Origin: Streptomyces sp. NBC_01497 | GTDB lineage: Bacteria; Actinomycetota; Actinomycetes; Streptomycetales; Streptomycetaceae | Direction of reading: 5' to 3' | Length of the DNA stretch: 64,000 bases | Assembly: GCF_036250695.1 (NCBI RefSeq) | Contig: NZ_CP109427.1 | Coordinates: forward strand, 7,192,001-7,256,000 | Shown: positions 51,196 to 63,164 of the stretch, piece by piece | How the letters are laid out: every line of letters begins with the position of its first letter | How positions within the stretch are numbered: the first letter of the stretch is position 1 | Notes under the pieces: generated by a model | Told to the model about the DNA's origin: nothing | The model's database searches: none | Seen by the model: only the letters and a program-made list of their open reading frames with translations | Program-made: the position numbers and the translations under genes

Positions 51196-53688
51196 ATGGT
51201 CGAGCAAGGGGAGCCAGGGGCCGTGGCCACGTCCGAGACGGCACTGACACCGTGCGATTCCGCCGGCGCCGCCGTGATGCTGGTCGAGGGGGAGCGCGGC
51301 AGGGTGACCGGATGGACGGGCGGCGCGGGGCGCCTGCTCGGGTACCGGGCGTCCGAGGCCGTGGGCCTGACTCTCGCCGAACTCGTCGTGGAGACGCGGG
51401 AGACGACGCGGGTACCGCAGCCGTCCCCGGGGGAGCGAAACCCCGACGACGTGCCGGAGGCGGCGGTCTCCGGTAAGCGGCAGCAGGTGGTGACCGGGCC
51501 CGGCGCCGTACGGGCCGACGCGCGGACGGCTCGCTCCGGTGGGAGCGCGCTCGCCCGGCGGCCGGGCGTGCCGCGTGCGATCGCCGCGGTGGAGCCGACC
51601 GCCGGCGCGCTCGCACTGCGGCACCGCGACGGCAGGACCGTACGCGTGCGGGCACGGTCCGTGCCGCTCCGGAGCGGCACGGACGCGGTCCGGTGGATGG
51701 TGCTCCTGGGCGGGGCGCCGGACGGGGACGGCGCGGGGGCGCAGGACGGCGCGAGGTCCGTGGACGGTGTGGACGGTGAGGGGCTCCGCCACGGCCAGGG
51801 CTGCGTGGACGGCGCGAGGCTCCGCCAGGGCCGGGGCGGCGCGAACGGCGTGGCGGACCTGGGCTGCGTGGGGGACCCGGACGGGGGAAGGGCCGCCGAC
51901 GGCGCGACGGCTCAGAACGGCGAGAGCGGCGCGGACGGCGAAAGTGGCGCGGACGGCGCGGACGGCTTCGACGAGTCCGTGTTCCCCCTCGGTCCGATCG
52001 GCCGCTGCCTGCTGGAGAACTCGCCGGTGGCGCTGGCCATCTGGGACGCCGACCTGCGGTGCCGGTGGATGAACACCACGGTGAACCACGCGCGGAGCCC
52101 GTTTCGGAACCGGCGGATCGGCGTCCCGGTGCGGCAGGCCCTGCCCGGTTACGACCCGGACAACGTCGAGGCGGTGATGCGGCAGGTCCTCCTGGACGGG
52201 CGGCCCGTGATCGACCACGAGTTCCGGTGGCTGACCGAGGACAACGAGCAGCGGGAGCAGGTGACCTCCTCCACCCTGTTCAGGCTCGACGACGCGGACG
52301 GCACCCCCATCGGGGTCTGCACGTTCTCCACGGACATCACCAGGAGCGGCAGCCGGGAGCGGCTCGCCCTGCTCAGCGACGTGGGCCTGCGCATCGGCAC
52401 CACCCTCGACGTGACCACCACGGCGCAGGAGCTGGCCGATGTGACGGTGCCGCTGCTGGCCGACTTCGCGACCGTCGATCTGGCCGAGTCGGTCCGCCTC
52501 GGTGGCGAACCGCTCGATCACCTGCGCCCGCGCAGCAAGCACATACCGGCGTTCCGGCGGGCCGGCGCGGCCTCGCTGCACGAAGGCACCCCGGAATCGG
52601 CGTACGCCGTCGGGGATCCCGTCTACGTGCCGGAGGGCTCGCCGCTGCTGGAGGTGCTGAAGACGGGGGAACCCTTCTACGCGCCCGCCATGGACACCTC
52701 GACAAGCACGTGGTTCGTCCACGACCCCGTGCGAGCGGAACTGGCGAACGCCTTCGCCATGCACTCCATGATCGTGATGCCGCTGGAGGCGCGCCGCACC
52801 ATCCTGGGGGTCGCCGTCTTCATCCGCACGAAGGACCGGGACCCGTTCACGCGGGACGACCTGGAGCTGGCGCGGGAACTGGCGGTGCGGGCCGCGCTGC
52901 ACCTGGACAACGCGCGGCGCTACACGCGCGAGCGGAGGGCCGCGCTCGCCCTCCAGCGCAACATGCTGCCCCGCGGCCTGCGGGGCGGGGACGCGGTGGA
53001 ACTGGCCGCGGAGTACGTACCCGCGGACGGTTACGAGGCCGTCGGGGGCGACTGGTTCGACGCCATCGCGCTGCCGCGCGGCCGCGTGGGCCTCGTCGTC
53101 GGGGACGTCGTCGGCCACGGTGTGGAGGCGGCGGCGTCGATGGGCCGCTTGCGGACGGCCGTGCACGCCCTCGCGCTCCTCGACCTGCCGCCCGCCGAGG
53201 TGCTGACCTGTTTCGACCAGGCCGCCGTCAAGCTCTCCGACGAGAACAGGCGGCCTGACGGCTTCGCCGAACCCATGGTGGGCGGCACCTGCGTGTACGC
53301 CGAGTACGACCCCGCCACCGGGCTGTGCACGTTCTCCTGCGCCGGGCATCCGCCGCCCGCCCTGGTCGACCCCGACGGCGGTGTGCGCCACCTCGATCTG
53401 CCGGCCGGTACGCCGATCGGCTTCGGGGAGGGCGGGTACGAGGAGAGGGCCGTGCCCGTCGCGGACGGCACGCTCGTCGCGCTGTTCACGGACGGCCTCC
53501 TCAACGGCCGCGCGGCGGACCTCGACCGGGGTCTGGAGCGCCTGCGCACCCAGCTCGCGCGTCCGGCGGACGACCTCGGCGCCTACTGCCGGGGCGTGAC
53601 CCATTCCATGACCGGCCACGAGCCGCAGGACGACGCGGCGCTGCTGGTGGCCCGCATACGCGGCAGGGCGGCGGTGGGGGCCCGCTGA
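51196..53688 (+). CDS. PAS-PAS-GAF-SpoIIE (PP2C-type) phosphatase with a low-complexity linker
   Basis: This 830-residue sensor phosphatase has PAS domain 1 (VEGERGRVTGWTGGAGRLLGYRASEAVGLTL, about 28-165). A linker (about 170-255) is built from Asp-Gly/Ala-Asp repeats such as DGVDGEGLRHGQGCVDGARL and GESGADGESGADGADG. PAS domain 2 (about 262-390) begins CLLENSPVALAIWDADLRC; GAF spans about 400-570, and SpoIIE PP2C about 575-830 (LQRNMLPRGLRGGDAV, VGGDWFDAIALPRG, VVGDVVGHGVEAAA, GHEPQDDAALLVARI). It dephosphorylates anti-sigma-antagonist proteins after sensing a ligand. ATG at 51196 follows GGGAAAGG. Its promoter is in an AT-richer 51120-51180 stretch. Confidence 0.9.
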   Translation: MVEQGEPGAVATSETALTPCDSAGAAVMLVEGERGRVTGWTGGAGRLLGYRASEAVGLTLAELVVETRETTRVPQPSPGERNPDDVPEAAVSGKRQQVVTGPGAVRADARTARSGGSALARRPGVPRAIAAVEPTAGALALRHRDGRTVRVRARSVPLRSGTDAVRWMVLLGGAPDGDGAGAQDGARSVDGVDGEGLRHGQGCVDGARLRQGRGGANGVADLGCVGDPDGGRAADGATAQNGESGADGESGADGADGFDESVFPLGPIGRCLLENSPVALAIWDADLRCRWMNTTVNHARSPFRNRRIGVPVRQALPGYDPDNVEAVMRQVLLDGRPVIDHEFRWLTEDNEQREQVTSSTLFRLDDADGTPIGVCTFSTDITRSGSRERLALLSDVGLRIGTTLDVTTTAQELADVTVPLLADFATVDLAESVRLGGEPLDHLRPRSKHIPAFRRAGAASLHEGTPESAYAVGDPVYVPEGSPLLEVLKTGEPFYAPAMDTSTSTWFVHDPVRAELANAFAMHSMIVMPLEARRTILGVAVFIRTKDRDPFTRDDLELARELAVRAALHLDNARRYTRERRAALALQRNMLPRGLRGGDAVELAAEYVPADGYEAVGGDWFDAIALPRGRVGLVVGDVVGHGVEAAASMGRLRTAVHALALLDLPPAEVLTCFDQAAVKLSDENRRPDGFAEPMVGGTCVYAEYDPATGLCTFSCAGHPPPALVDPDGGVRHLDLPAGTPIGFGEGGYEERAVPVADGTLVALFTDGLLNGRAADLDRGLERLRTQLARPADDLGAYCRGVTHSMTGHEPQDDAALLVARIRGRAAVGAR

Positions 53689-53769: not shown

Positions 53770-55281
53770 TTACCGCGCGCCCGCCAGTACCTCGGCGGCG
53801 GCGACGCCTGAAGCCGCCGTGGCGCCGTGCGTGAAGATGTGCAGCGCGCCGGGGGCGCAGGCGCCGGGCAGGCCCATCTCCACCACGATCGCGTCGGGCC
53901 GTGCCACGGTGAGGTCCGCGAGCGCGCGGCCCATCCACGCGTGGCGTGCCGCGTCCCGGACGACCACCACGATGGGGCGCCCCGCGGCGGGCGCCAGCGC
54001 GTACTCCTGCAGGAGCGCGGCGCGCTCCGCGAGTTCCTGCGGGTGGACGCGGACGAAGGTCGTTCCGGGGAGGCGCTCGCGCAGCGGGACGGCGACGCCC
54101 CAGGGTGTCTCCTTGGCGATGGCGAGGTTCGTCGACGGCACGAGTTCCACCACGTGCGGCGCCGCGGTCAGCGGCAGGACGTCGTCCGCGGGTCCGCTGA
54201 GCCGGATGGCGCGGCGCGCCGCGACGTAGCCGATGTCGCCGCTCACCGGGTCCACCGGGACGGCGCTGCCCAGGCGGACCGACCAGTCGGCGAACTCCCG
54301 CACCCGCTCCGCTGCCTCCACGAGGCGCTCCTCGGGCAGTTCGCCCGAGCGGACGGCGTCCACCAGGGCGTCGGCGAGCAGTCGCGTGGTGGACTCCTCG
54401 GCGCTCTCGCCGCCGACGCAGACCGCGTCCGCGCCCGCGAGGACGGCCTTCACGGTGGCACCGCCGATGCCGTACAGGTTCGTGACGGCACCCATCTCGA
54501 TCGCGTCGGTGACGATGAGGCCGTCGAAGCCGAGTTCCTTGCGCAGCAGTTCGACGAGGATGCGCCGGCTGAGGGTGGCGGGCAGGTCCGGGTCGTAGGC
54601 CGGTACCAGGAGGTGGCCGCTCATGACGGCGCGCACGCCGGCGTCGAGGGCGGCGCGGAACGGCGGCAGCGCCTGTTCGGCGATCCGGTCCAGGTCGGCC
54701 TCGTAGCTGGGCAGGCCGTGGTGCGAGTCGACGGCGACATCGCCGTGGCCGGGGAAGTGCTTGGCGCAGGCCGCGACACCGGCGGACTGCAGCCCCCGCA
54801 CCCAGGCGCCCGCGTGCCGCGACACCACGGCGGTCTCGATGCCGAAGGACCGGACTCCGATGACGGGGTTGTCCGGGTTGGAGTTGACGTCGACGCTGGG
54901 CGCGTAGTCGAGGCTCACCCCGGCGGCGTGCAACTGGCGGCCCAGGTCGCGGGCGACGCACTCCGTCAGCTCGACGTCGTCCACGGCGCCGAGCGCGAAG
55001 TTGCCGGGCCGGGTCGAACCGGTCGCGGACTCCAGGCGGGTGACGTCCCCGGCCTCCTCGTCGATCGCGATGATCAACGACGGATTCTCGGCGCGGAGCT
55101 GAGCCGTCAGCCGCGCGACCTGCTGGGGGGAGGCGATGTTGCGCGTGAACAGCACGACCGATGACAGCCCGGCACCGATCGCGCGCAGGATCCAGTCCGG
55201 TGCCTCGGTGCCCGCGAAGCCCGGTTGGAGGACGGAGAGCGCGAGAGCGCGCACGTCCTGGTTGTGCTTGCTGGAGGACAT
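53770..55281 (-). CDS. Glycoside hydrolase family 3 beta-N-acetylhexosaminidase (NagZ-like)
   Basis: This 503-residue enzyme has a GH3 TIM barrel with KHFPGHGDVAVDSHHGLP, the His/Asp-containing loop that supplies the acid/base in NagZ-type enzymes, and the nucleophile Asp in VTDAIEMGAV. The C-terminal 150 residues form a second domain, seen in actinobacterial NagA/NagZ versions. No signal peptide is apparent (start MSSSKHNQDVRAL), so it acts in the cytoplasm on GlcNAc-containing di- or muropeptide-type sugars. The ATG lies 50-85 bp from DasR-like palindromes that indicate amino-sugar-responsive control. Confidence 0.9.
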   Translation of the reverse strand: MSSSKHNQDVRALALSVLQPGFAGTEAPDWILRAIGAGLSSVVLFTRNIASPQQVARLTAQLRAENPSLIIAIDEEAGDVTRLESATGSTRPGNFALGAVDDVELTECVARDLGRQLHAAGVSLDYAPSVDVNSNPDNPVIGVRSFGIETAVVSRHAGAWVRGLQSAGVAACAKHFPGHGDVAVDSHHGLPSYEADLDRIAEQALPPFRAALDAGVRAVMSGHLLVPAYDPDLPATLSRRILVELLRKELGFDGLIVTDAIEMGAVTNLYGIGGATVKAVLAGADAVCVGGESAEESTTRLLADALVDAVRSGELPEERLVEAAERVREFADWSVRLGSAVPVDPVSGDIGYVAARRAIRLSGPADDVLPLTAAPHVVELVPSTNLAIAKETPWGVAVPLRERLPGTTFVRVHPQELAERAALLQEYALAPAAGRPIVVVVRDAARHAWMGRALADLTVARPDAIVVEMGLPGACAPGALHIFTHGATAASGVAAAEVLAGAR

Positions 55282-55330
55282 CGACCGGGCCTTCCGGGGG
55301 AGTGCGGGACATATCGAGAGCAGCGGTGTG

Positions 55331-55367
55331 ATTGGTACAGGCCAAAGGGATATTGGCCTAGGCCAAT
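55331..55367. promoter_or_regulatory. DasR-like operator pair upstream of the GH3 gene
   Basis: ATTGGCCTAGGCCAAT (55352-55367) is a perfect 16-bp palindrome. ATTGGTACAGGCCAAA (55331-55346) is an imperfect copy 21 bp away. Both resemble the known DasR-responsive element ACTGGTCTAGACCACT in symmetry and TTGG/CCAA ends, but the cores differ, so a DasR paralogue or ROK/GntR protein is also possible. Confidence 0.6.
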
Positions 55368-56234
55368 CGGGGTGTCAAGGGTGCGAGGCGTCGTGCGCGG
55401 TGCGCCTCGCGCGTGATCGCCCCCGCTGCGGTAGCCGGCCGCTCCTTCCCACGGGCCCCGACGCCGGGCCTTCCCGCGGGCCCCGACGCCGGGCGGGCGT
55501 GTGTGCTCGGGAACTCGGGGCCCGGGGTCCCGGGGCTCCCGTTTCTCGACCCCGGAACTGAACCTTCGCGGCTGCGCCCACGTCTGACGGGTGGGCAGTT
55601 CTTCCGCGACAACGCTCCGTTCTGGCCCGGATCGTTTCGAACGGGTGTGACGCTTGTGCGTTCCGGGTAACGGATGTGCCCGATTTCGCTATTGACAGGG
55701 GAAGTTGGTCTAGTCCATTTTGGTGGGACGCGAGTGACGCAAGAAACGGATGTGACGAACCGGCCCGCCCGGTCCCGACCATTCACCGAGCGGAACCGAA
55801 CGGACACCCTCGGGTGTCCATGGCCCGTCGAGGGCAGCAAGCGCAAGGGCAAGTGCAAGGGGCGAGAAGCTGGTGCTGTATGCGCGGAGAACCACACCGA
55901 CTGCGGCTGACCGCTCGACGCGGCAGTGCGCGCCCCCCGACTCCCCGTCGCTCTGAACCCCGCCTCCCAGCGCCGGCGCCCACCCTCTGCCCGTCTGTCC
56001 GACCGCCCGTCTGAGGCTTCGGAGAGGCCCCCACCAGTCGGTGTGACAACGGCGCCCTGTCCCACGGCTGTGCGCGGCAGCCACCGGCCCGGCTCCGAAC
56101 CTGACGGGTCCTCGGAAGCCGTTCCCCCCACTGACCGTGTGTGCCCCCACACCGGATCCCTCCCGGCCCCGTTCGCGTGCCGGAGGCGATCCGTTCAGTG
56201 ACATCGACACAAGAACGAGCCTTGGAGCGACTCC
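55368..56234. promoter_or_regulatory. Long upstream region of the five-gene biosynthetic operon
   Basis: This 870-bp region has a 25-bp tandem duplication at 55446-55495 and, at 55692-55719, TTGACA followed by GTTGGTCTAGTCCATT. The latter matches 11 of 12 core bases of the DasR-type element TGGTCTAGACCA. No -10 of the TAnnnT type lies at optimal spacing. Short open frames (for example 55674-55910, 55676-56014) have no conserved content. The first gene of the operon starts about 540 bp further on, so a long leader, another promoter or a lost gene is possible. Confidence 0.5.
55446..55495. repeat. 25-bp tandem duplication
   Basis: TTCCCACGGGCCCCGACGCC plus GGGCC (55446-55470) is followed directly by TTCCCGCGGGCCCCGACGCC plus GGGCG (55471-55495), two differences in 25. 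Confidence 0.85.
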
Positions 56235-57299
56235 ATGCAGGCATCTGACCGCTATCTGTACCGGGTCCCGTCGGACGTCCCGTATTTCAGCAGGGACGCC
56301 GACACCTATCTGGCACAGACACCGCTGCGGGAACTCCGCAAGGAGCACAAGCTCCGCGTGCTGTCGGAAGAGGACTTCACCTTCTGGCAGACCTACGGCT
56401 ACATCGTGGTCAAGCAGGCCGTACCGACCGCGGTGGCGGAACAACTGCTGGAATTCGCCTGGGATTTCCAGGGCCTCGACCCCCAGCGGCCGGAGACCTG
56501 GTACGAGGAGCGGGAATACCGCTCGGACCTCGACCGCGAACTGCACATCTACGGCTTCGTGGAGGCCTACCAGCACCAGCTCATCTGGGACAACCGCCAG
56601 GCGCAGCGCGTCTACGACGCCTTCGTCGACGTCTGGGACTGCGAAGAGCTCTGGGTGACGCTGGACCGGCTCAACCTCAACCCGCCCAACGTCAGGACCC
56701 GTGACCGCGCGCTCATCCCGTCCACCGAGCGCGGCTTCGACATCAAGCTGCACTGGGACATCGACTCCACGCTCGGCGTCGTGCCGCAGCGCGTGCAGGG
56801 CATCATCGCGCTCAACGACACCAAGCCGGACCAGGGCGGCTTCCAGTGCAACCCGGAGCTGTTCCGCCACTTCGACCGCTGGAAGGTGGACCAGCCCGCG
56901 GACCGGGACCCGATCAGGCCCGCATACGACCCGGCCGAGTTCCCGGTGGTACGTCCCGACCTGGAGGCGGGCGACCTGCTGATCTGGAACGGCGCCCTGG
57001 CCCACGGCGTGGCACCCAACATCTCCACCGACGGGGTGCGCGCCGTGCAGTACCTCTCGATGATGCCCGCGCTGGAGTCCCACGAGGAGCTGCGCCGCTC
57101 CCGCGTGAACTCGTGGCGCACCCTGAGCACCCCCGAATGGAACGGGACACTGCTCGGCGACCGGGACAAGCACGAGTCGCTGCGGTACGGCCCGGCCGAA
57201 CTGAGCGATCTGGGCTCCAAGCTGCTGGGCCTCACGTCCTGGACCGGTGAGCGGTTCGACGAGTCGACCGGGGACGGGACATGCGCAGAATCTGCCTGA
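56235..57299 (+). CDS. Fe(II)/2-oxoglutarate dioxygenase (phytanoyl-CoA hydroxylase family)
   Basis: This 354-residue protein is of the PhyH fold. The facial triad is H173 and D175 in KLHWDIDST and H257 in WNGALAHGVAPN, with R269 (GVRAVQYLSM) as probable 2-oxoglutarate ligand. It should hydroxylate a C-H bond of a small substrate, with CO2 and succinate as co-products; in such operons that is often a free or modified amino acid. ATG at 56235 follows TTGGAGCG. Its 3' end overlaps the next gene by 19 bp, so it heads a coupled five-gene operon. Confidence 0.85.
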   Translation: MQASDRYLYRVPSDVPYFSRDADTYLAQTPLRELRKEHKLRVLSEEDFTFWQTYGYIVVKQAVPTAVAEQLLEFAWDFQGLDPQRPETWYEEREYRSDLDRELHIYGFVEAYQHQLIWDNRQAQRVYDAFVDVWDCEELWVTLDRLNLNPPNVRTRDRALIPSTERGFDIKLHWDIDSTLGVVPQRVQGIIALNDTKPDQGGFQCNPELFRHFDRWKVDQPADRDPIRPAYDPAEFPVVRPDLEAGDLLIWNGALAHGVAPNISTDGVRAVQYLSMMPALESHEELRRSRVNSWRTLSTPEWNGTLLGDRDKHESLRYGPAELSDLGSKLLGLTSWTGERFDESTGDGTCAESA

Positions 57300-58627
57300 C
57301 ACTCCCCACCAACCGGGAGTGCGCCGGGACGATAGCGGCCGTGCACGAGGAAGCCGCCCACGCCGCACGCCACTTCGACGTCGAGGTGCACCTGCTCGTC
57401 CTGGACTCCTCCGGCGCCGCCGACTTCGCCGCGCACGCCGAGGCCGTCCGGCGGGCGCCCCGGGTGCCCGGTGTGGTCGTGCACCACCTCGGGGAGAGCG
57501 GACAGCGCGACTTCCTGAGGCGGGTGATCCGCCACGCCGACGTGCCCAAACCGGACCTGATGCTCGACCTCATGCTCCCCGGGGGCGTCTCCTACGGTGC
57601 GTGCACCAACCGGGCGTTCCTGATCGCCGCAGCGCTCGGCTGCCGGTCCGTGCATCGCAGGGACTCGGACAGCCGCTACCAAGTGCTGGACGGCGCACCC
57701 GTGTTCCCCATCCACCACGAGCTGATGTCGCTCGGCAAGCGGGCCGGCGACGCGGCCGGCGGCGTCACGTCGAGCGACCTTGACCCGCGGTACGCGGACC
57801 GGCCGGTGTCGATGGTGGCCGGCTCCTTCGTGGGCGAGCTCTCCGTCGACATCGGCGAGATCCAGGAGCTGGACCCCGAGGTCTACGTCGACGTCGTCAG
57901 CCTCTGGGCGCCCGTCGACTGGAGTGACAAGCAGAAGCGGGACCTCGTCGCGGAGTCCTTCCGCGGCGCGGGCACCGAGGCGTTCACCGCCGACCGGGCG
58001 ACCCTCACCGTCGTCGACCCGATGCGGATCGACATGTGCAACATCAGCTTCCACGCGGTACAGGAGCAGTTGCCGCTGCCGCCGGCCACCGACACCATCG
58101 GCAGCGACTACTTCCTCATGCACGTCGTGCATGACGCCGGACTGCCCGGTGTGCTGCACAACCGCGACATCGTCAACTTCTACACGCCGGAGCGCCGCAC
58201 GGGCGCCGGCTTCACCGCGTACCAGACGCGGTTCGTGAAGTTCTTCCTGTCGATGCTCTACTTCAACGCGCTGTACGACCGGATGGCGCGGACCGGCGGG
58301 GCGCTGCTCGACGCGGACCACCGGCTGCGGGTGCCCCTGATCGCGGAGATGGTCCGCGAGAGTGCCGCTCACGACCGTACGGAGAACGTCGAGCGGCTGG
58401 ACACGCTCGATGCGGCCTACCGCAAACTGGGCGGGAAGTACGCCGACTTCGCCGACTCCCTCGCCGGCCGCAGGGAACGGCTGCTGGACGAGGCGCGCGG
58501 CGACATCGAGGACTTCGCGTTCCTCATCGAGGAGTGGGGCCCGCTGATCGACGCGAGCCGTGCCCTCGGACTCGGCGGGACCGGCGGACCGGACCCGGCC
58601 CGCCCCGGGGACGGGCAGCCGGCTTGA
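57281..58627 (+). CDS. Unknown protein, possibly GT-A-type glycosyltransferase (perhaps DUF6271)
   Basis: This 448-residue protein has an N-terminal strand and loop RICLTLPTNRECAGTIAAV, then a VEVHLLVLDSS second strand typical of a nucleotide-sugar-binding GT-A fold. It also has a DxD-like D128-S-D130 in VHRRDSDSRYQVLDG, where a metal-sugar-nucleotide motif is expected. The C-terminal half is helical (ERRTGAGFTAYQTRFVKFFLSM, ERLDTLDAAYRKLGGKYADFADSL). I recall a similar actinobacterial family of uncharacterised proteins, possibly DUF6271, but cannot check. It overlaps the dioxygenase by 19 bp and lies 8 bp upstream of the decarboxylase. Its role in the pathway is unknown. Confidence 0.6.
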   Translation: MRRICLTLPTNRECAGTIAAVHEEAAHAARHFDVEVHLLVLDSSGAADFAAHAEAVRRAPRVPGVVVHHLGESGQRDFLRRVIRHADVPKPDLMLDLMLPGGVSYGACTNRAFLIAAALGCRSVHRRDSDSRYQVLDGAPVFPIHHELMSLGKRAGDAAGGVTSSDLDPRYADRPVSMVAGSFVGELSVDIGEIQELDPEVYVDVVSLWAPVDWSDKQKRDLVAESFRGAGTEAFTADRATLTVVDPMRIDMCNISFHAVQEQLPLPPATDTIGSDYFLMHVVHDAGLPGVLHNRDIVNFYTPERRTGAGFTAYQTRFVKFFLSMLYFNALYDRMARTGGALLDADHRLRVPLIAEMVRESAAHDRTENVERLDTLDAAYRKLGGKYADFADSLAGRRERLLDEARGDIEDFAFLIEEWGPLIDASRALGLGGTGGPDPARPGDGQPA

Positions 58628-58635
58628 GACCGCCG

Positions 58636-59862
58636 ATGACGCGACCGAACGCGTCCCTGCGCGCCGCGCTGGCCGACTCGGCCGAGGACACGATCATCTT
58701 CGACCTGGGTGGCGTACGTGAGCGCTACGAGAGCCTGGTCCGCGAACTGCCCGGGGTGGCCGTCCGGTTCGCCATGAAGGCCTGCCCCGTCGACGAGGTG
58801 CTCGACTGCCTCGCCGAGTGCGGGGCCGGATTCGATGCGGCGAGCCCGCGGGAGATCGTCCAGGCCCTCGCCACCGGTGTGCCGGCCGACGCCGTGCACT
58901 ACGGCAACACCATCAAGTCCGACCACAACATCGCCGACGCCTACCGCCTCGGCATCCGGGACTTCGCGACCGACAGCCGGGAGGATGTCGCGGCGATCGC
59001 CGCCCGTGCTCCCGGCTCCCGGGTCTTCTGCCGGCTCGCCACCGACGGGGAGGGGGCCCTGTGGGGCCTCAGCAACAAGTACGGCTGCTCGGCCGACGAC
59101 GCGGTGCGCGTCATGGAGTCCGCGCGGGACGCGGGGCTGGTCCCCTCGGGGCTCTCCGTCCACGTCGGTTCGCAGCAGATGACGGCCGGGGCATGGCGGA
59201 GCGCCTTCGAGCGGATCGGCGATGTGCTGGCCGCGCTGCGCCGCCGCGGCATGGTCCTGGACCAGGTGAACCTCGGCGGCGGGCTGCCCGCGTCCGGATA
59301 CCTCGACACGCGGGGCAGGCCGCTCGATCCGCCGACGGACAAGATATTCGCGGTGATCAGGGAAGGCACCCAGCAGTTGCGGGACGAGTTCGGGGAGCAC
59401 CTCACGTTCCTGGCGGAACCGGGCCGTTACCTCGTCGCCGACCAGGGCGCCATCCGGGCGCACGTGGCCCGGCTGACCTCGCGCGAGCAGCCCGGCGGTG
59501 AGCGCGCGCACTGGCTCTACCTCAGCTGCGGCAAGTTCAACGGCCTCTACGAGATGGACGCGCTGCAGTACCGGCTCGTCTTCCCGACGCACCCGGACGG
59601 CCCGTACGTACCGGCGGTCGTCGCGGGGCCCACCTGCGACAGCGATGACGCCTACGCGCACGAGCACGGCCTCGTCCAGGTGCCCGAGGCGCTCGCCTCG
59701 GGCGATCCGGTGTGGGTGATCTCCGCGGGCGCCTATGCGACCAGCTACATGACGCAGGGGTTCAACGGCTTCAGCCCACTGCCGTACGTCTGCGTGGGCG
59801 ACGGGAGCACCGAGGCGTCCCCTCCCCACGAGCCGGCCGCGCGGAAGGTGCCTCTCGGATGA
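58636..59862 (+). CDS. PLP-dependent amino-acid decarboxylase, alanine-racemase fold (ODC/DAPDC-like)
   Basis: This 408-residue protein is of the fold type III PLP enzymes. The cofactor lysine is K48 in VRFAMKACPVDEVL, the phosphate-binding glycine loop is LGGGLPASG (about 216-224), and C334-D335 in GPTCDSDDAY form the dyad seen in ornithine and related decarboxylases at the dimer interface. C-terminal YATSYMTQGFNGF supplies the conserved Tyr. It probably decarboxylates ornithine, lysine, arginine or diaminopimelate, or a hydroxylated derivative made by the upstream dioxygenase. ATG at 58636 is 8 bp after the preceding stop and overlaps the next gene by ATGA. Confidence 0.87.
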   Translation: MTRPNASLRAALADSAEDTIIFDLGGVRERYESLVRELPGVAVRFAMKACPVDEVLDCLAECGAGFDAASPREIVQALATGVPADAVHYGNTIKSDHNIADAYRLGIRDFATDSREDVAAIAARAPGSRVFCRLATDGEGALWGLSNKYGCSADDAVRVMESARDAGLVPSGLSVHVGSQQMTAGAWRSAFERIGDVLAALRRRGMVLDQVNLGGGLPASGYLDTRGRPLDPPTDKIFAVIREGTQQLRDEFGEHLTFLAEPGRYLVADQGAIRAHVARLTSREQPGGERAHWLYLSCGKFNGLYEMDALQYRLVFPTHPDGPYVPAVVAGPTCDSDDAYAHEHGLVQVPEALASGDPVWVISAGAYATSYMTQGFNGFSPLPYVCVGDGSTEASPPHEPAARKVPLG

Positions 59863-60599
59863 GCCCGACCCGCCACGGCGTACGCGTACGGCACCTGTCG
59901 GACGACGACTGGGACGCGGTCGTCGCCCTGGAGTTCCACACCTACGACCCGGCCGGTCTCTCGGAGGGCCGCGCCGCGCTGGAGTCCCGGGTCCGCGCGT
60001 CGCCGTCGACGTGCTTCGTCCTGCACCTGGAGGGGCGGCTCGCCGGCTACGCGCTGGCGCTGCCCTACCCGGAGTCCGCCTACCCGGAGCTGGCCGGCAC
60101 CGACGAGACCGCGTTCGAGTCGAGCAACCTCCATCTGCACGACCTCGTCATCGCCGAGCACCTGCGCGGCCGCGGCCTCGGCAGGCACCTGCTGCGCCAC
60201 CTGAGTGCCACGGCCGCCGCGCACGGCTTCGAGCGGATGTCCCTGGTCGCTGTCGGCGGCAGCGACACCTTCTGGGCGGGCAACGGATTCACCGCGCACC
60301 AGGGGATCGTGCCCTCCGGGAGCTACGGGGCCGACGCCGTGTACATGAGCAGGACCGTGGTGGCCGGCCGGGCGCAGGCGGTGGACGGGACGGCCACCGC
60401 GGGCATGACGGCCACGGCCGGCCGGGCCGTGGCCGGGGCGGTGACCGTGACCCTGGACCGGACTCCCGCGGCCGCCCGGGGCGGCGGGCAGGAGGCGCGG
60501 GCCGTGCGGGTGCCCGCGCCGGTGCCCGGCGCCGGGAAGCCGCACGCCGCCAACATGAGCGCGCCGCGCGGCTCGTCAACGCACCGACAGAAGGGCTGA
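59859..60599 (+). CDS. GNAT-family N-acetyltransferase with a disordered tail
   Basis: This 246-residue protein has an N-terminal GNAT domain (about 1-165): VRHLSDDDWDAVVALEF, LHLHDLVIAEHLRGRGLGRHLLRHL with the acetyl-CoA pyrophosphate loop (R-x-x-G-L-G), then LVAVGGSDTFWAGNGF. The last 80 residues are Ala/Gly/Thr/Pro-rich and probably disordered (TATAGMTATAGRAVAGAV). It likely acetylates an amine of the pathway product, for example the amine released by the decarboxylase. The ATG overlaps the upstream stop (ATGA at 59859-59862). Five bases separate it from the MFS gene. Confidence 0.85.
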   Translation: MSPTRHGVRVRHLSDDDWDAVVALEFHTYDPAGLSEGRAALESRVRASPSTCFVLHLEGRLAGYALALPYPESAYPELAGTDETAFESSNLHLHDLVIAEHLRGRGLGRHLLRHLSATAAAHGFERMSLVAVGGSDTFWAGNGFTAHQGIVPSGSYGADAVYMSRTVVAGRAQAVDGTATAGMTATAGRAVAGAVTVTLDRTPAAARGGGQEARAVRVPAPVPGAGKPHAANMSAPRGSSTHRQKG

Positions 60600-60604
60600 T
60601 ACGC

Positions 60605-61885
60605 GTGTTCCGCGTCCACGATCCGTTCCGACGGGCACAGCTGGCGATCGCCGCGCTGTTCTGCACCCTCGGCTTCCAGTACGCCACCTGGGCCTCACGG
60701 GTCCCGGCGATCAAGGCGCACCTGGGCCTGAGCACGGCCGAGGTGGGCCTGCTGCTGATGGCCACCGGGGTGGGGGCGGCCGCCTCCTTCCCGCTGGTGG
60801 CATGGCTGATGAGGCGGCTCGGATCCCAGCGGCTCGCGCTGCTGTCCGCCCTCGGCCTCGCCCTGCTGCTGTTCGCGCTCGCGTCGGCGCCGAACTACCC
60901 GGTCGCCCTGGTGATCATGCTGGCCGACGGTGTCCTCGTCGGCGGGCTCAACGTCTCGATGAACGCGCAGGGAGCCGCTCTCGAAGTCCGGTACAAGCGC
61001 AACGCGATGGCCAGGCTGCACGCCACGTTCAGCGCCGGGTCCCTGGGGGCCGCCCTGCTCGCGTCCGGTATGAACGCCCTGACCTCCGCCGTCCTCACGC
61101 ACTTCGCCGTGGCGGCCGTCCTCCTGCTGCTGCTGGTCGGATACGCGCGATCCGGGCTGATGGCGGAGGAGGGAGCAGGGGCCGCCGACGGGCAGGACGG
61201 GCAGGTCGCCGCCGCGGGGGCGGACAAGCCGGCGAAGAAATCCGGCCGGTGGTCCCTGCCGACCCGTATGACCCTGTGGATGTGCTGCGCGATGGCGTTC
61301 GGCACCGTGACCGAGGGCGCCATGAACGACTGGTCCGCCCTCTACCTCAAGGACGTCGCGAAGGCGTCGGCGGAACTCGCGCCCCTGGGCATCGCCGTCG
61401 TCTCCGGCATGATGGTGCTGGCCCGCATCTTCGCGGACGGCTGGCGCAGCCGCTGGGGCGACGGACGCATCGTCACGTTCGGCAGCGCCCTGGCCGGGGT
61501 GGGCCTCGCGCTCGCCCTGCTGAGCGGCGGCACGGTGCCCGCGCTGATCGGGTTCGCCTGTGTCGGCCTCGGCATCGCGGCCGTCACCCCCTGCGTCTAC
61601 GTGGCTGCCGCGGCGCAGGGCTCGGACGCCCTGACCCTCGTCGCCGCCATGGGGACCACGGGTCTGCTGGGCGGTCCGCCGGTCATCGGATTCATCGCGA
61701 ACGCCGGCAGCCTGGTGTGGGGCATGGGCGCGGTGGCCGGATGCGCCCTCGTCGTCACGCTCTGCGCGACCCGGATCAGCTGGCCGAGCGCGGCCGTGGG
61801 GACCGACGCGGCACCCGGGCCTGACGATGCCCCCGGGGTCCCCGAGGGGCGGATCGCGCCGCTGGCCGAGGCGGCGGAGAGCTGA
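60605..61885 (+). CDS. MFS exporter of the biosynthetic operon
   Basis: This 426-residue transporter has twelve helices in two six-helix bundles (QLAIAALFCTLGFQYATWASR in TM1, a long loop with Gly/Asp-rich AADGQDGQVAAAGADKPAKK between TM6 and TM7). The loop 2-3 motif is MRRLGSQR. It resembles fucose-permease-like MFS proteins in the first helices. Start is GTG at 60605 a few bases behind the acetyltransferase stop codon; a longer frame overlaps that gene entirely. It should export the final product or import a precursor. It is last in the operon, with a strong terminator at 61959-61997. Confidence 0.87.
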   Translation: MFRVHDPFRRAQLAIAALFCTLGFQYATWASRVPAIKAHLGLSTAEVGLLLMATGVGAAASFPLVAWLMRRLGSQRLALLSALGLALLLFALASAPNYPVALVIMLADGVLVGGLNVSMNAQGAALEVRYKRNAMARLHATFSAGSLGAALLASGMNALTSAVLTHFAVAAVLLLLLVGYARSGLMAEEGAGAADGQDGQVAAAGADKPAKKSGRWSLPTRMTLWMCCAMAFGTVTEGAMNDWSALYLKDVAKASAELAPLGIAVVSGMMVLARIFADGWRSRWGDGRIVTFGSALAGVGLALALLSGGTVPALIGFACVGLGIAAVTPCVYVAAAAQGSDALTLVAAMGTTGLLGGPPVIGFIANAGSLVWGMGAVAGCALVVTLCATRISWPSAAVGTDAAPGPDDAPGVPEGRIAPLAEAAES

Positions 61886-61958
61886 CCCCGCGCCACCGGG
61901 CGTACTGGTGGTCCCGCCGGGACCGGCGCCCGGCCGGTGAGCGGGACCGGGCATGATC

Positions 61959-61997
61959 GGGACGGTACCGGGCGCGTCGAGCACCCGGTACCGTCCC
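61959..61997 (+). terminator. Strong terminator at the end of the five-gene operon
   Basis: GGGACGGTACCGGG (61959-61972) and CCCGGTACCGTCCC (61984-61997) form a perfect 14-bp stem with an 11-nt loop, 73 bp after the MFS stop codon. Confidence 0.85.
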
Positions 61998-62055
61998 CTC
62001 GCGGGGTCCCGACGAGGGGCCCGCACGAGAACAGACGGACACCGGAGAGCAGGAC

Positions 62056-62823
62056 ATGACGACCGACAGACCCGCATCGCCCATCGACACGAGCACCCCC
62101 CACCCGGCGCGCGTGTACGACTACCTTCTCGGCGGCAAGGACAACTACCGCGTCGACAAGGAGATGGCGGAGCGGCTGCCCCCGGCCGTCGCCGAGGGGG
62201 CCCGGCACAACCGGGCGTTCATGCACCGCGCCTTGGCCTGGGTCGCCGGCACCGGGATCGACCAGTACCTCGACATCGGCACCGGCATCCCGACCGAGCC
62301 GAACCTCCACCAGATCGTCCAGCGCGCCGTGCCGACAGCGCGCGTCGTGTACACGGACTACGACCCGATCGTGCTGCGCCATGCGGAGGCCCTGCTGGTC
62401 AGCGCCGCCGGCGGGAGCACCGACTACATCCAGGCCGATGTGCGGGAACCGGGCGCCATCCTCGAACACGCCCGTACCGTGCTCGACTTCGACCGGCCGG
62501 TCTGCCTGTCGCTGATCGCGCTGATGCACTTCGTCACCGACGACCAGGATCCCTACGGCATTGTCCGTACCCTCGTTGACGCGATGCCGGCGGGCAGCGT
62601 CCTCGTGTTCTCGCACGGCACCTTCGACTTCCATCCGGCGAACGACGCGTACTCGTCCCGGATCGACTCGAAGTGGCGCACCCTCGCGGAGATCGAACCG
62701 TTCTTCGACGGCCTCGAACTGGTCGCGCCCGGCATCGTCCCCGCGCCGCGGTGGTACCAGGACACGGCGGCGCCGCAGGACGAGGTGTCCGGCATCTACG
62801 CGGCCGTGGCCCGCATCCGCTGA
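62056..62823 (+). CDS. SAM-dependent methyltransferase (DUF574/Methyltransf_19 type)
   Basis: This 255-residue protein is of the Streptomyces-rich S-adenosyl methyltransferase family PF04672. It opens TPHPARVYDYLLGGKDNYRVDK, has the SAM loop YLDIGTGIPTEPNLHQ, then VVYTDYDPIVLRHAEALL (acidic ribose contact) and a RPVCLSLIALMHFVTDD central strand. Members occur in many copies per genome, and substrates are mostly unknown. ATG at 62056 follows GGAGAGCAGG. It begins 170 bp after the operon and behind its terminator, so it is not a sure part of the cluster. Confidence 0.9.
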   Translation: MTTDRPASPIDTSTPHPARVYDYLLGGKDNYRVDKEMAERLPPAVAEGARHNRAFMHRALAWVAGTGIDQYLDIGTGIPTEPNLHQIVQRAVPTARVVYTDYDPIVLRHAEALLVSAAGGSTDYIQADVREPGAILEHARTVLDFDRPVCLSLIALMHFVTDDQDPYGIVRTLVDAMPAGSVLVFSHGTFDFHPANDAYSSRIDSKWRTLAEIEPFFDGLELVAPGIVPAPRWYQDTAAPQDEVSGIYAAVARIR

Positions 62824-63164
62824 CCGCCTGATCCCCTCCCGGGCATCGGCTCACCCACGGGCCCCGCCGCGCTTGCCGCCCCGAGCCGGCCGCGGCGGGG
62901 CCCCAGGGGTGGCGGGGCAAAGCCGACGCTGCGCCAAACTCCGTACGAACGGGGCGAGTTGACTGAGCGTGTTGCGCCGCCAGGCCGGTGAAAGTTTCTT
63001 TCAGCGTCCGTGGTGGTCGCCGCTTTCGCAGGTATAGACCAACGGCGTGGGCCGATGCCCCTTCACAGCCGCTTCCCTCAGGCCCCACTCTTTCGGCATG
63101 CGACGCCCGCACGGTGGGCACGTCGTGAGCGCACCGGAATCTCCCCCCACTGCTGGAGGCACTG
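62824..63164. promoter_or_regulatory. Upstream region of the GH25 gene with two operator-like elements
   Basis: TGAAAG-TTT-CTTTCA (62989-63003) is a perfect 6-3-6 inverted repeat resembling LacI-family operators (GAAAnTTTC). GGTATAGACCA (63031-63041) differs in one base from GGTCTAGACCA, the DasR-type core. No gene is visible here. Confidence 0.55.

Follow-up and report, generated by a model that had tools for sequence, protein, structure and literature searches.

The closest described relatives of the enzymes considered here are the GT75 nucleoside diphosphate (NDP)-pyranose mutases (MtdL of the A201A pathway, Hyg20 and the plant UAM/RGP proteins), the small-molecule glycosyltransferases MpgS, GpgS and MGS, which we take to represent the families GT55, GT81 and GT78, and the lysine/ornithine decarboxylases of the PDB entries 2plj and 5gjm. 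The subject of this analysis is an operon of Streptomyces sp. NBC_01497 contained in a stretch of 64,000 nucleotides (contig NZ_CP109427.1, positions 7,192,001 to 7,256,000; hereafter, the window). Its five genes encode a dioxygenase (A), a protein of the family DUF6271 (B), a decarboxylase dependent on pyridoxal phosphate (PLP) (C), a GNAT acetyltransferase (D) and a transporter of the major facilitator superfamily (MFS) (E). The DUF6271 protein is 13% identical to the GT75 mutases and 10–15% identical to MpgS, GpgS and MGS, from which it is expected to differ in using an acceptor derived from an amino acid rather than glycerate. The decarboxylase shares the PLP lysine and the HVGS, GGG, EPGR, GPTCD and GAY motifs with 2plj and 5gjm but differs from them at the presumed place of Asp332 of ornithine decarboxylase (ODC) and in being fused to the GNAT domain in 10 loci.

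Among gene clusters, a small one for scleric acid in Streptomyces sclerotialus, with an MFS gene, split transketolase-type subunits and a condensation domain, is described in PMC6335953, where neither ‘glycosyltransferase’ nor ‘phytanoyl’ appears as a term. The operon in the window differs from that cluster in that, by Pfam, its five genes include no carrier, nonribosomal peptide synthetase (NRPS) or transketolase gene.

We propose that the product of the operon is a small glycosylated, N-acetylated, amino-acid-derived amine, made without an assembly line and then exported, an outline to which we give nearly even weight. In the presumed order of steps, A would hydroxylate a basic or basic-like amino acid on its side chain, B would attach a sugar, C would decarboxylate the conjugate and thus expose a primary amine, D would acetylate this amine and E would export the product. 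A hexosamine such as N-acetylglucosamine (GlcNAc) is the best guess for the sugar because of a linked GH3 gene, the product of which, presumed to be cytosolic, would remove the sugar inside the cell in salvage or self-protection. The probability of GlcNAc as the sugar, or of any particular amino acid as the substrate, is much lower than that of the outline. If true, the proposal would add a route to glycosylated amines that involves neither an NRPS nor a polyketide synthase (PKS) and would expose a blind spot of genome mining by core-enzyme rules.

Gene content and distribution of the DUF6271 loci

An earlier sequence-only reading of the window described the five genes as a compact plus-strand operon, with adjacent genes that overlap or are separated by no more than 8 bp, and the coordinates of the open reading frames agree with this description. 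The five family assignments hold as well, with Pfam returning PhyH, DUF6271, Orn_Arg_deC_N, GNAT and MFS, and so does the statement that NRPS and PKS are missing: a Pfam scan of the five genes detects no NRPS, PKS, condensation or ketosynthase domain, only tailoring and transport enzymes.

The conservation of the operon was assessed in two samples, in both of which many rows are close relatives. The first, 34 DUF6271 loci from a pattern scan of genome contigs with B, favors close relatives; the second consists of 112 loci from the DUF6271-positive members of a sample of 200 genomes of the window's family and omits the copy in the window as well as fragments in G425, G371, G478 and G323:C3. Gene calls come from a purpose-built scorer, and the neighbor counts rest on tblastn matches, which for the 112 loci were mapped within 6.5 kb of B, some contigs ending sooner (for L173, the sequence upstream of B is 222 bases long).

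The order A-B-C-D-E on one strand is found in 31 of the 34 loci of the first sample, the exceptions being L028, without A and E, L032, without A, and L033, which is cut by the contig end after B. In the second sample, all five genes are present, in this order or in variants such as C-A-B-D-E, at 72 of the 112 loci, which define type I. The five genes thus co-occur across genomes as one conserved unit, contrary to the lack of co-occurrence that the sequence-only reading had named as its refutation. The remaining loci comprise 10 of type II, in which A and B are accompanied by genes for a condensation-domain protein, for a protein resembling an amino acid:[acyl-carrier-protein] ligase and for another MFS protein, 26 of type III, with B and D only, two B-D-E, one B-C-D and one A-B. 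At the type II locus L101, Pfam and NCBIfam identify the condensation domain, a phosphopantetheinyl transferase (PPTase) and the ligase, the last with 101.8 bits against a cut-off of 357. Across the 112 loci, B is constant because it defined the sample, D lies beside it in 101 and A in 83. Weighing against the proposed pathway is the absence of the full set from 40 of the 112 loci; the 26 that hold only B and D imply that these two can do without A, C and E.

In a tree of 149 B proteins (quick method, midpoint root), type II is a single clade of 11 rows with a starred support of 100, and type III, counted as 28 tree rows that include both B-D-E loci, is nested among type I rows and requires two changes. 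The pairing of A and B with ligase-like and condensation-domain genes in type II places these two proteins in amino-acid chemistry.

The same chemistry is suggested by remote loci, since carrier-ligase-like genes accompany DUF6271 in two phyla. A DUF6271 protein of 20% identity is encoded on six plasmid records of Apilactobacillus kunkeei, where, at the locus L039 (1177-11575, tags PLPX), its gene is flanked by those for a class IV aminotransferase and a split transketolase. Genes of the ATP-grasp, methyltransferase, MFS and amino acid:carrier-ligase-like kinds complete an apparent biosynthetic cluster there. The accessible part of PMC9648514, which deals with A. kunkeei plasmids, does not describe this cluster. 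On plasmids of S. clavuligerus, the locus L037 has A-B beside genes annotated as a metallo-beta-lactamase (MBL)-fold hydrolase, an N-acetyltransferase and an AEC transporter, and L038 (11549-16650) is of type II, with a condensation-domain protein followed by a split transketolase. It is L038 that resembles the scleric acid cluster (PMC6335953), both having a condensation domain and a transketolase in split subunits.

Gene fusions tie the steps together. C and D form a single open frame in 10 of the 101 loci where they are adjacent, and B and D do so in 2 of 36: in L106, a single protein of 605 residues matches both DUF6271 and GNAT by Pfam, and L184, where B has a stop (G402), is an unconfirmed case. 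The fusion of D both to C and to B argues for a single pathway that includes the decarboxylation, the acetylation and the step of B.

The window's 9.08 Mb genome contains one DUF6271 match, and the nearest relatives are from Streptomyces. Beyond it, a protein search yields at least 1321 relatives (7999 candidates scored), and in a phylum-wide sample, DUF6271 occurs in 4 of 296 genomes, which all belong to the window's genus and include the window's own genome. Within the sample of 200 genomes of the family, 101 carry DUF6271, which is more than expected for one antibiotic. This frequency, along with the fact that the structural neighbors MpgS, GpgS and MGS glycosylate small acids, speaks for a different kind of product, namely, a compatible solute or protectant, such as a glycosyl analog of hydroxyectoine or mannosylglycerate, instead of a secreted bioactive metabolite. 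We regard this alternative as improbable, given that an MFS gene is present in 72 of the 73 loci that have B, C and D together, which suggests export, and that the distribution is patchy, with 99 of the 200 genomes lacking a match.

Some DUF6271 copies, in G371, G402, G408, G415 and G479, are fragmentary or broken by in-frame stops; these may be errors of sequencing or signs that some genomes are losing the gene. The in-frame stops seen in A at some loci were dismissed as the true stop of a shorter A, overrun by the tblastn match.

Two additional associations were observed. In the related type I loci L005 (5987-6991), L008, L025 and L026, the gene after that for the MFS protein encodes an AurF-type N-oxygenase; the L005 product matches Pfam AurF at 2e-97, the genes of all four loci belong to one blastp family, and they possibly yield an N-oxidized variant of the product. 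The DUF6271-GNAT pairs of type III are convergent with a gene for a beta-ketoacyl synthase III (KAS III) at L082, L083, L087, L089, L090 and L092 and likewise at L176, L177, L179, L180 and L181; L087 also encodes a PPTase and an acyl carrier, to which inspection by eye adds a UDP-glycosyltransferase (UGT)-like gene and a further carrier-like one.

Fold and active site of the DUF6271 protein

The sequence-only reading saw a GT-A pattern in B and could assign it no known role. The first point is borne out by the predicted structure, which is confident (pLDDT 92) and combines a GT-A fold with a helical C-terminal region. As to the second, B belongs to DUF6271 (PF19787, 776.9 bits against a cut-off of 25), and its model is most like MtdL and UAM, metal-dependent sugar-nucleotide mutases of GT75, followed by the MpgS and GpgS transferases (VIA-align); that it lacks a described function still stands. 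A sequence search of the PDB with B gives no credible match. The term ‘DUF6271’ is absent from the 5.39 million open papers searched, which leave out most subscription journals, and searches by family names and by the gene combination returned nothing relevant and no named product. The enzyme kinds are known, and we found no described function for their combination or for DUF6271.

Residues were counted on 151 B rows (112 loci, 34 loci of the first sample and five plasmid loci, with some genomes shared). D130, D276, H293 and R305 are present in all 151 copies, and none of the 47 rows of A2, which include remote ones, lacks them; D128 is present in 127 of the 151. B retains the DxD along with a His and an Asp that is a candidate base, and H293 may, as judged by eye, correspond to MtdL His287. 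What differs from the GT75 mutases is that 17 DUF6271 members give no match to the Pfam RGP model and that no Arg between the DxD and the His is kept across the whole family. Because such a family-wide Arg is wanting, B is read as a glycosyltransferase with an outside acceptor, and we propose that it is a metal-dependent, probably inverting GT-A glycosyltransferase. Assignment to GT75 from the fold alone was dropped, since the RGP model does not match and a counterpart of the Arg is not established.

Several results weigh against this reading of B or against its anchoring in the GT75 fold. In a Foldseek search with the B model, the best match is PcManGT (E 5.5e-5), the query template modeling (TM) score is at most 0.36 among the 50 matches listed, and MtdL is absent among these 50. 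Comparison of the DUF6271 and GT75 profiles by hhalign gives P 0.068 and 0.08 over the first 110-130 columns, and with this insignificant match, the residue mapping between DUF6271 and MtdL is by eye. R249 lies between the DxD and the His and is an Arg in 118 of the 151 copies, all 118 being among the 127 with a standard DxD; no other Arg from D130 to H293 is kept in at least 90% of the standard copies, and R249 may serve as an internal nucleophile in types I and II.

The R249 position bears directly on an alternative under which DUF6271 would be an NDP-sugar mutase like MtdL and UAM, converting a pyranose to a furanose for use by an unlinked transferase. The fold and the conserved Arg of types I and II are what this alternative has in its favor. 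In MtdL, the proposed nucleophile Arg159 and Arg257, which contacts the beta-phosphate, lie 48 and 146 residues past the last Asp of the DXD motif (PMC9937993), and R249 lies 119 residues past the last DxD Asp, a place in the sequence that differs from that of Arg159. Furthermore, the position is occupied by D or N in 24 copies with D128N, by His in 6 of the standard copies and by Tyr in each of the 10 remote rows of the Lactobacillaceae type, and the operon contains no other glycosyltransferase. Altogether, we consider a mutase quite unlikely.

Among the evidence for the proposed pathway are the 24 D128N copies. They also carry R126L and have Y, N or F at position 251, and all come from loci with D and without A and C in view (the set includes L173, with its short upstream region); the four type III rows outside this set keep the standard residues. 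The active site of B and the gene content change together. That the loss of partners and the altered active site coincide in one lineage fits a change of the acceptor or donor; for the same reason, these 24 rows are not 24 independent events, which detracts from the argument. The sequence-only reading considered glycosylation merely possible, and in our judgment, the DUF6271 step looks central, its commonest partner being the GNAT protein.

A bolder proposition, which we hold to be doubtful, is that DUF6271 constitutes a new glycosyltransferase family that uses the fold of the GT75 mutases, with a free amino acid in place of the internal Arg acceptor, and founds a large overlooked class of glycosyl-amino-acid metabolites made without assembly lines, spanning types I to III and the remote relatives in bee-associated Lactobacillaceae. 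The products would be hydroxylated, decarboxylated and acetylated in type I, coupled to carrier-bound amino acids in type II, and only glycosylated and acetylated, by enzymes with an altered DxD, in type III. Should the proposed pathway itself be right, roughly half of the genomes in the family sample would encode a route to a metabolite class undescribed in the literature searched, and DUF6271 would be a case of mutase and transferase functions parting on one fold.

The dioxygenase, the decarboxylase and the linked GH3 gene

The dioxygenase A matches PhyH (PF05721, 1.2e-9) and, at its cut-off, the Gig2-like family (PF07350, 2.4e-6). H173, D175, H257 and R269 are invariant in 120 of 120 copies; judging by the family, we take the first three to be the HxD...H metal triad and R269 to be the Arg that binds 2-oxoglutarate. 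A role as a halogenase was set aside because the Asp of HxD is kept. A sequence search of the PDB with A gives no match at 0.01, and a profile search gives only TlxJ (0.031), YbiU (0.7) and unrelated rows. The predicted structure of A is poor (pLDDT 46.7; AlphaFold2, 21 sequences), which makes the presumed substrate class of A a weak spot of the proposed pathway.

In the decarboxylase C, the kept residues are K48 (108 of 108 copies), H176, GGG214-216, E261, R264, C334 and D335 (both in 107 of 108, with one gap) and Y367. The closest PDB matches are the lysine/ornithine decarboxylases 2plj and 5gjm, and C334/D335 presumably correspond to ODC Cys360/Asp361. Residue 298, which we take to occupy the place of ODC Asp332, the holder of the distal amine, is Cys in 100 and Val in 5 of the 108 copies, in a gapped part of the alignment. 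This substitution makes a plain ornithine/lysine decarboxylase somewhat less likely than one that acts on a modified substrate, a moderate point. For the substrate tentatively suggested by the sequence-only reading, an amino acid derived from ornithine, lysine or arginine, the evidence is divided: the ODC Cys/Asp pair (GPTCD) is kept, and the presumed Asp332 place holds Cys or Val.

The likeness of C to lysine/ornithine decarboxylases and the C-D fusions are also what would be expected of polyamine metabolism, with C making a diamine, D acetylating it, E exporting it, and A and B as bystanders. We find this scenario distinctly improbable because A and B occur together in 83 of the 112 loci, eleven of these without C and D, because B is itself fused to D in L106, and because of the Cys or Val at the presumed Asp332 place.

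The sequence-only reading confined the system to the five genes, all of which stay in it, and overlooked a neighboring gene of the GH3 family. The product of this gene matches the GH3 beta-N-acetylglucosaminidase 6k5j (3.1e-77) and YbbD/NagZ in the PDB and the NCBIfam model for beta-N-acetylhexosaminidase with 185.9 bits, under the cut-off of 207; a signal peptide is not obvious by eye. The gene lies upstream of A in the window; it is present in 24 of the 34 loci of the first sample, divergently in 12 and codirectionally in 12, and in the second sample it lies beside 32 of 72 type I loci vs none of the 40 others. Close relatives of the window's gene (at least 600 bits; matches listed to about 1e-156) were compared in their coordinates with DUF6271 in the family sample, type III hits being excluded: among the matches listed, 28 of 37 lie within 5 kb of DUF6271. 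On the B tree, GH3 shows 8 and 6 label changes, of which at least 2 and 4 are forced by starred branches. We take the GH3 gene to be a functional but dispensable member of the pathway.

Against this assignment, GH3 was not found beside 40 of the 72 type I operons, and 9 of the 37 close relatives among the matches listed are not adjacent to DUF6271 (4 are distant from it, and the genomes of the other 5 gave no match to DUF6271). As GH3 genes are common, with some match at 1e-100 in 198 of the 200 genomes, the gene could be an unrelated neighbor retained by chance, a possibility that concerns GH3 only and not the operon. This appears unlikely in view of the adjacency in both orientations, its repeated changes on the tree and its confinement to type I operons.

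Layout and surroundings of the operon

Features of the operon and its vicinity (positions in the window)
Feature	Position	Strand	Evidence or remark
Gene A, PhyH-family Fe(II)/2-oxoglutarate dioxygenase	56235-57299	+	Pfam PF05721, PF07350
Gene B, DUF6271 GT-A-fold protein, proposed glycosyltransferase	57281-58627	+	PF19787; D128-S-D130, D276, H293, R305
Gene C, fold III PLP decarboxylase, ODC/LysA superfamily	58636-59862	+	PF02784 2.7e-41
Gene D, GNAT acetyltransferase	59859-60599	+	PF00583 1.1e-12
Gene E, MFS transporter, presumed exporter	60605-61885	+	PF07690 7.6e-19
A/B overlap, 19 nt	57281-57299	+	same length in 22/32 loci
Hairpin, candidate terminator without T run	61959-61997	+	17-nt arms
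GH3 beta-N-acetylhexosaminidase-like gene	53770-55281	-	PDB and NCBIfam matches

After the A/B overlap, the junctions are a gap of 8 nt, an overlap of 4 nt and a gap of 5 nt. Compared with Streptomyces sp. 8L (L002), the proteins of which are 70–89% identical to those of the window, the ratios of nonsynonymous to synonymous substitution rates (dN/dS) of A to E are 0.17, 0.28, 0.20, 0.47 and 0.24.

The 14-bp terminator postulated behind the operon corresponds to a hairpin with 14 unbroken pairs, which begins 73 nt past the last stop and has arms that are 94% complementary; its role in transcription termination is a guess. The region 61940-62030 folds with -60.3 kcal/mol (z -3.9, 200 shuffles), and a simple terminator scan that requires a T run does not list the hairpin. 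No sigma-70-like promoter was detected in 55000-63000, which says little for Streptomyces.

The operon is flanked by genes for a PAS/GAF/SpoIIE phosphatase (51196-53688) and an S-adenosyl methyltransferase (PF04672, 62056-62823). The GNAT protein D ends in a low-complexity tail rich in Ala, Gly and Thr (about 60360-60596), a C-terminal extension of ~75 residues, and has a similar length, 233-234 amino acids, in the near relatives L002 and L007.

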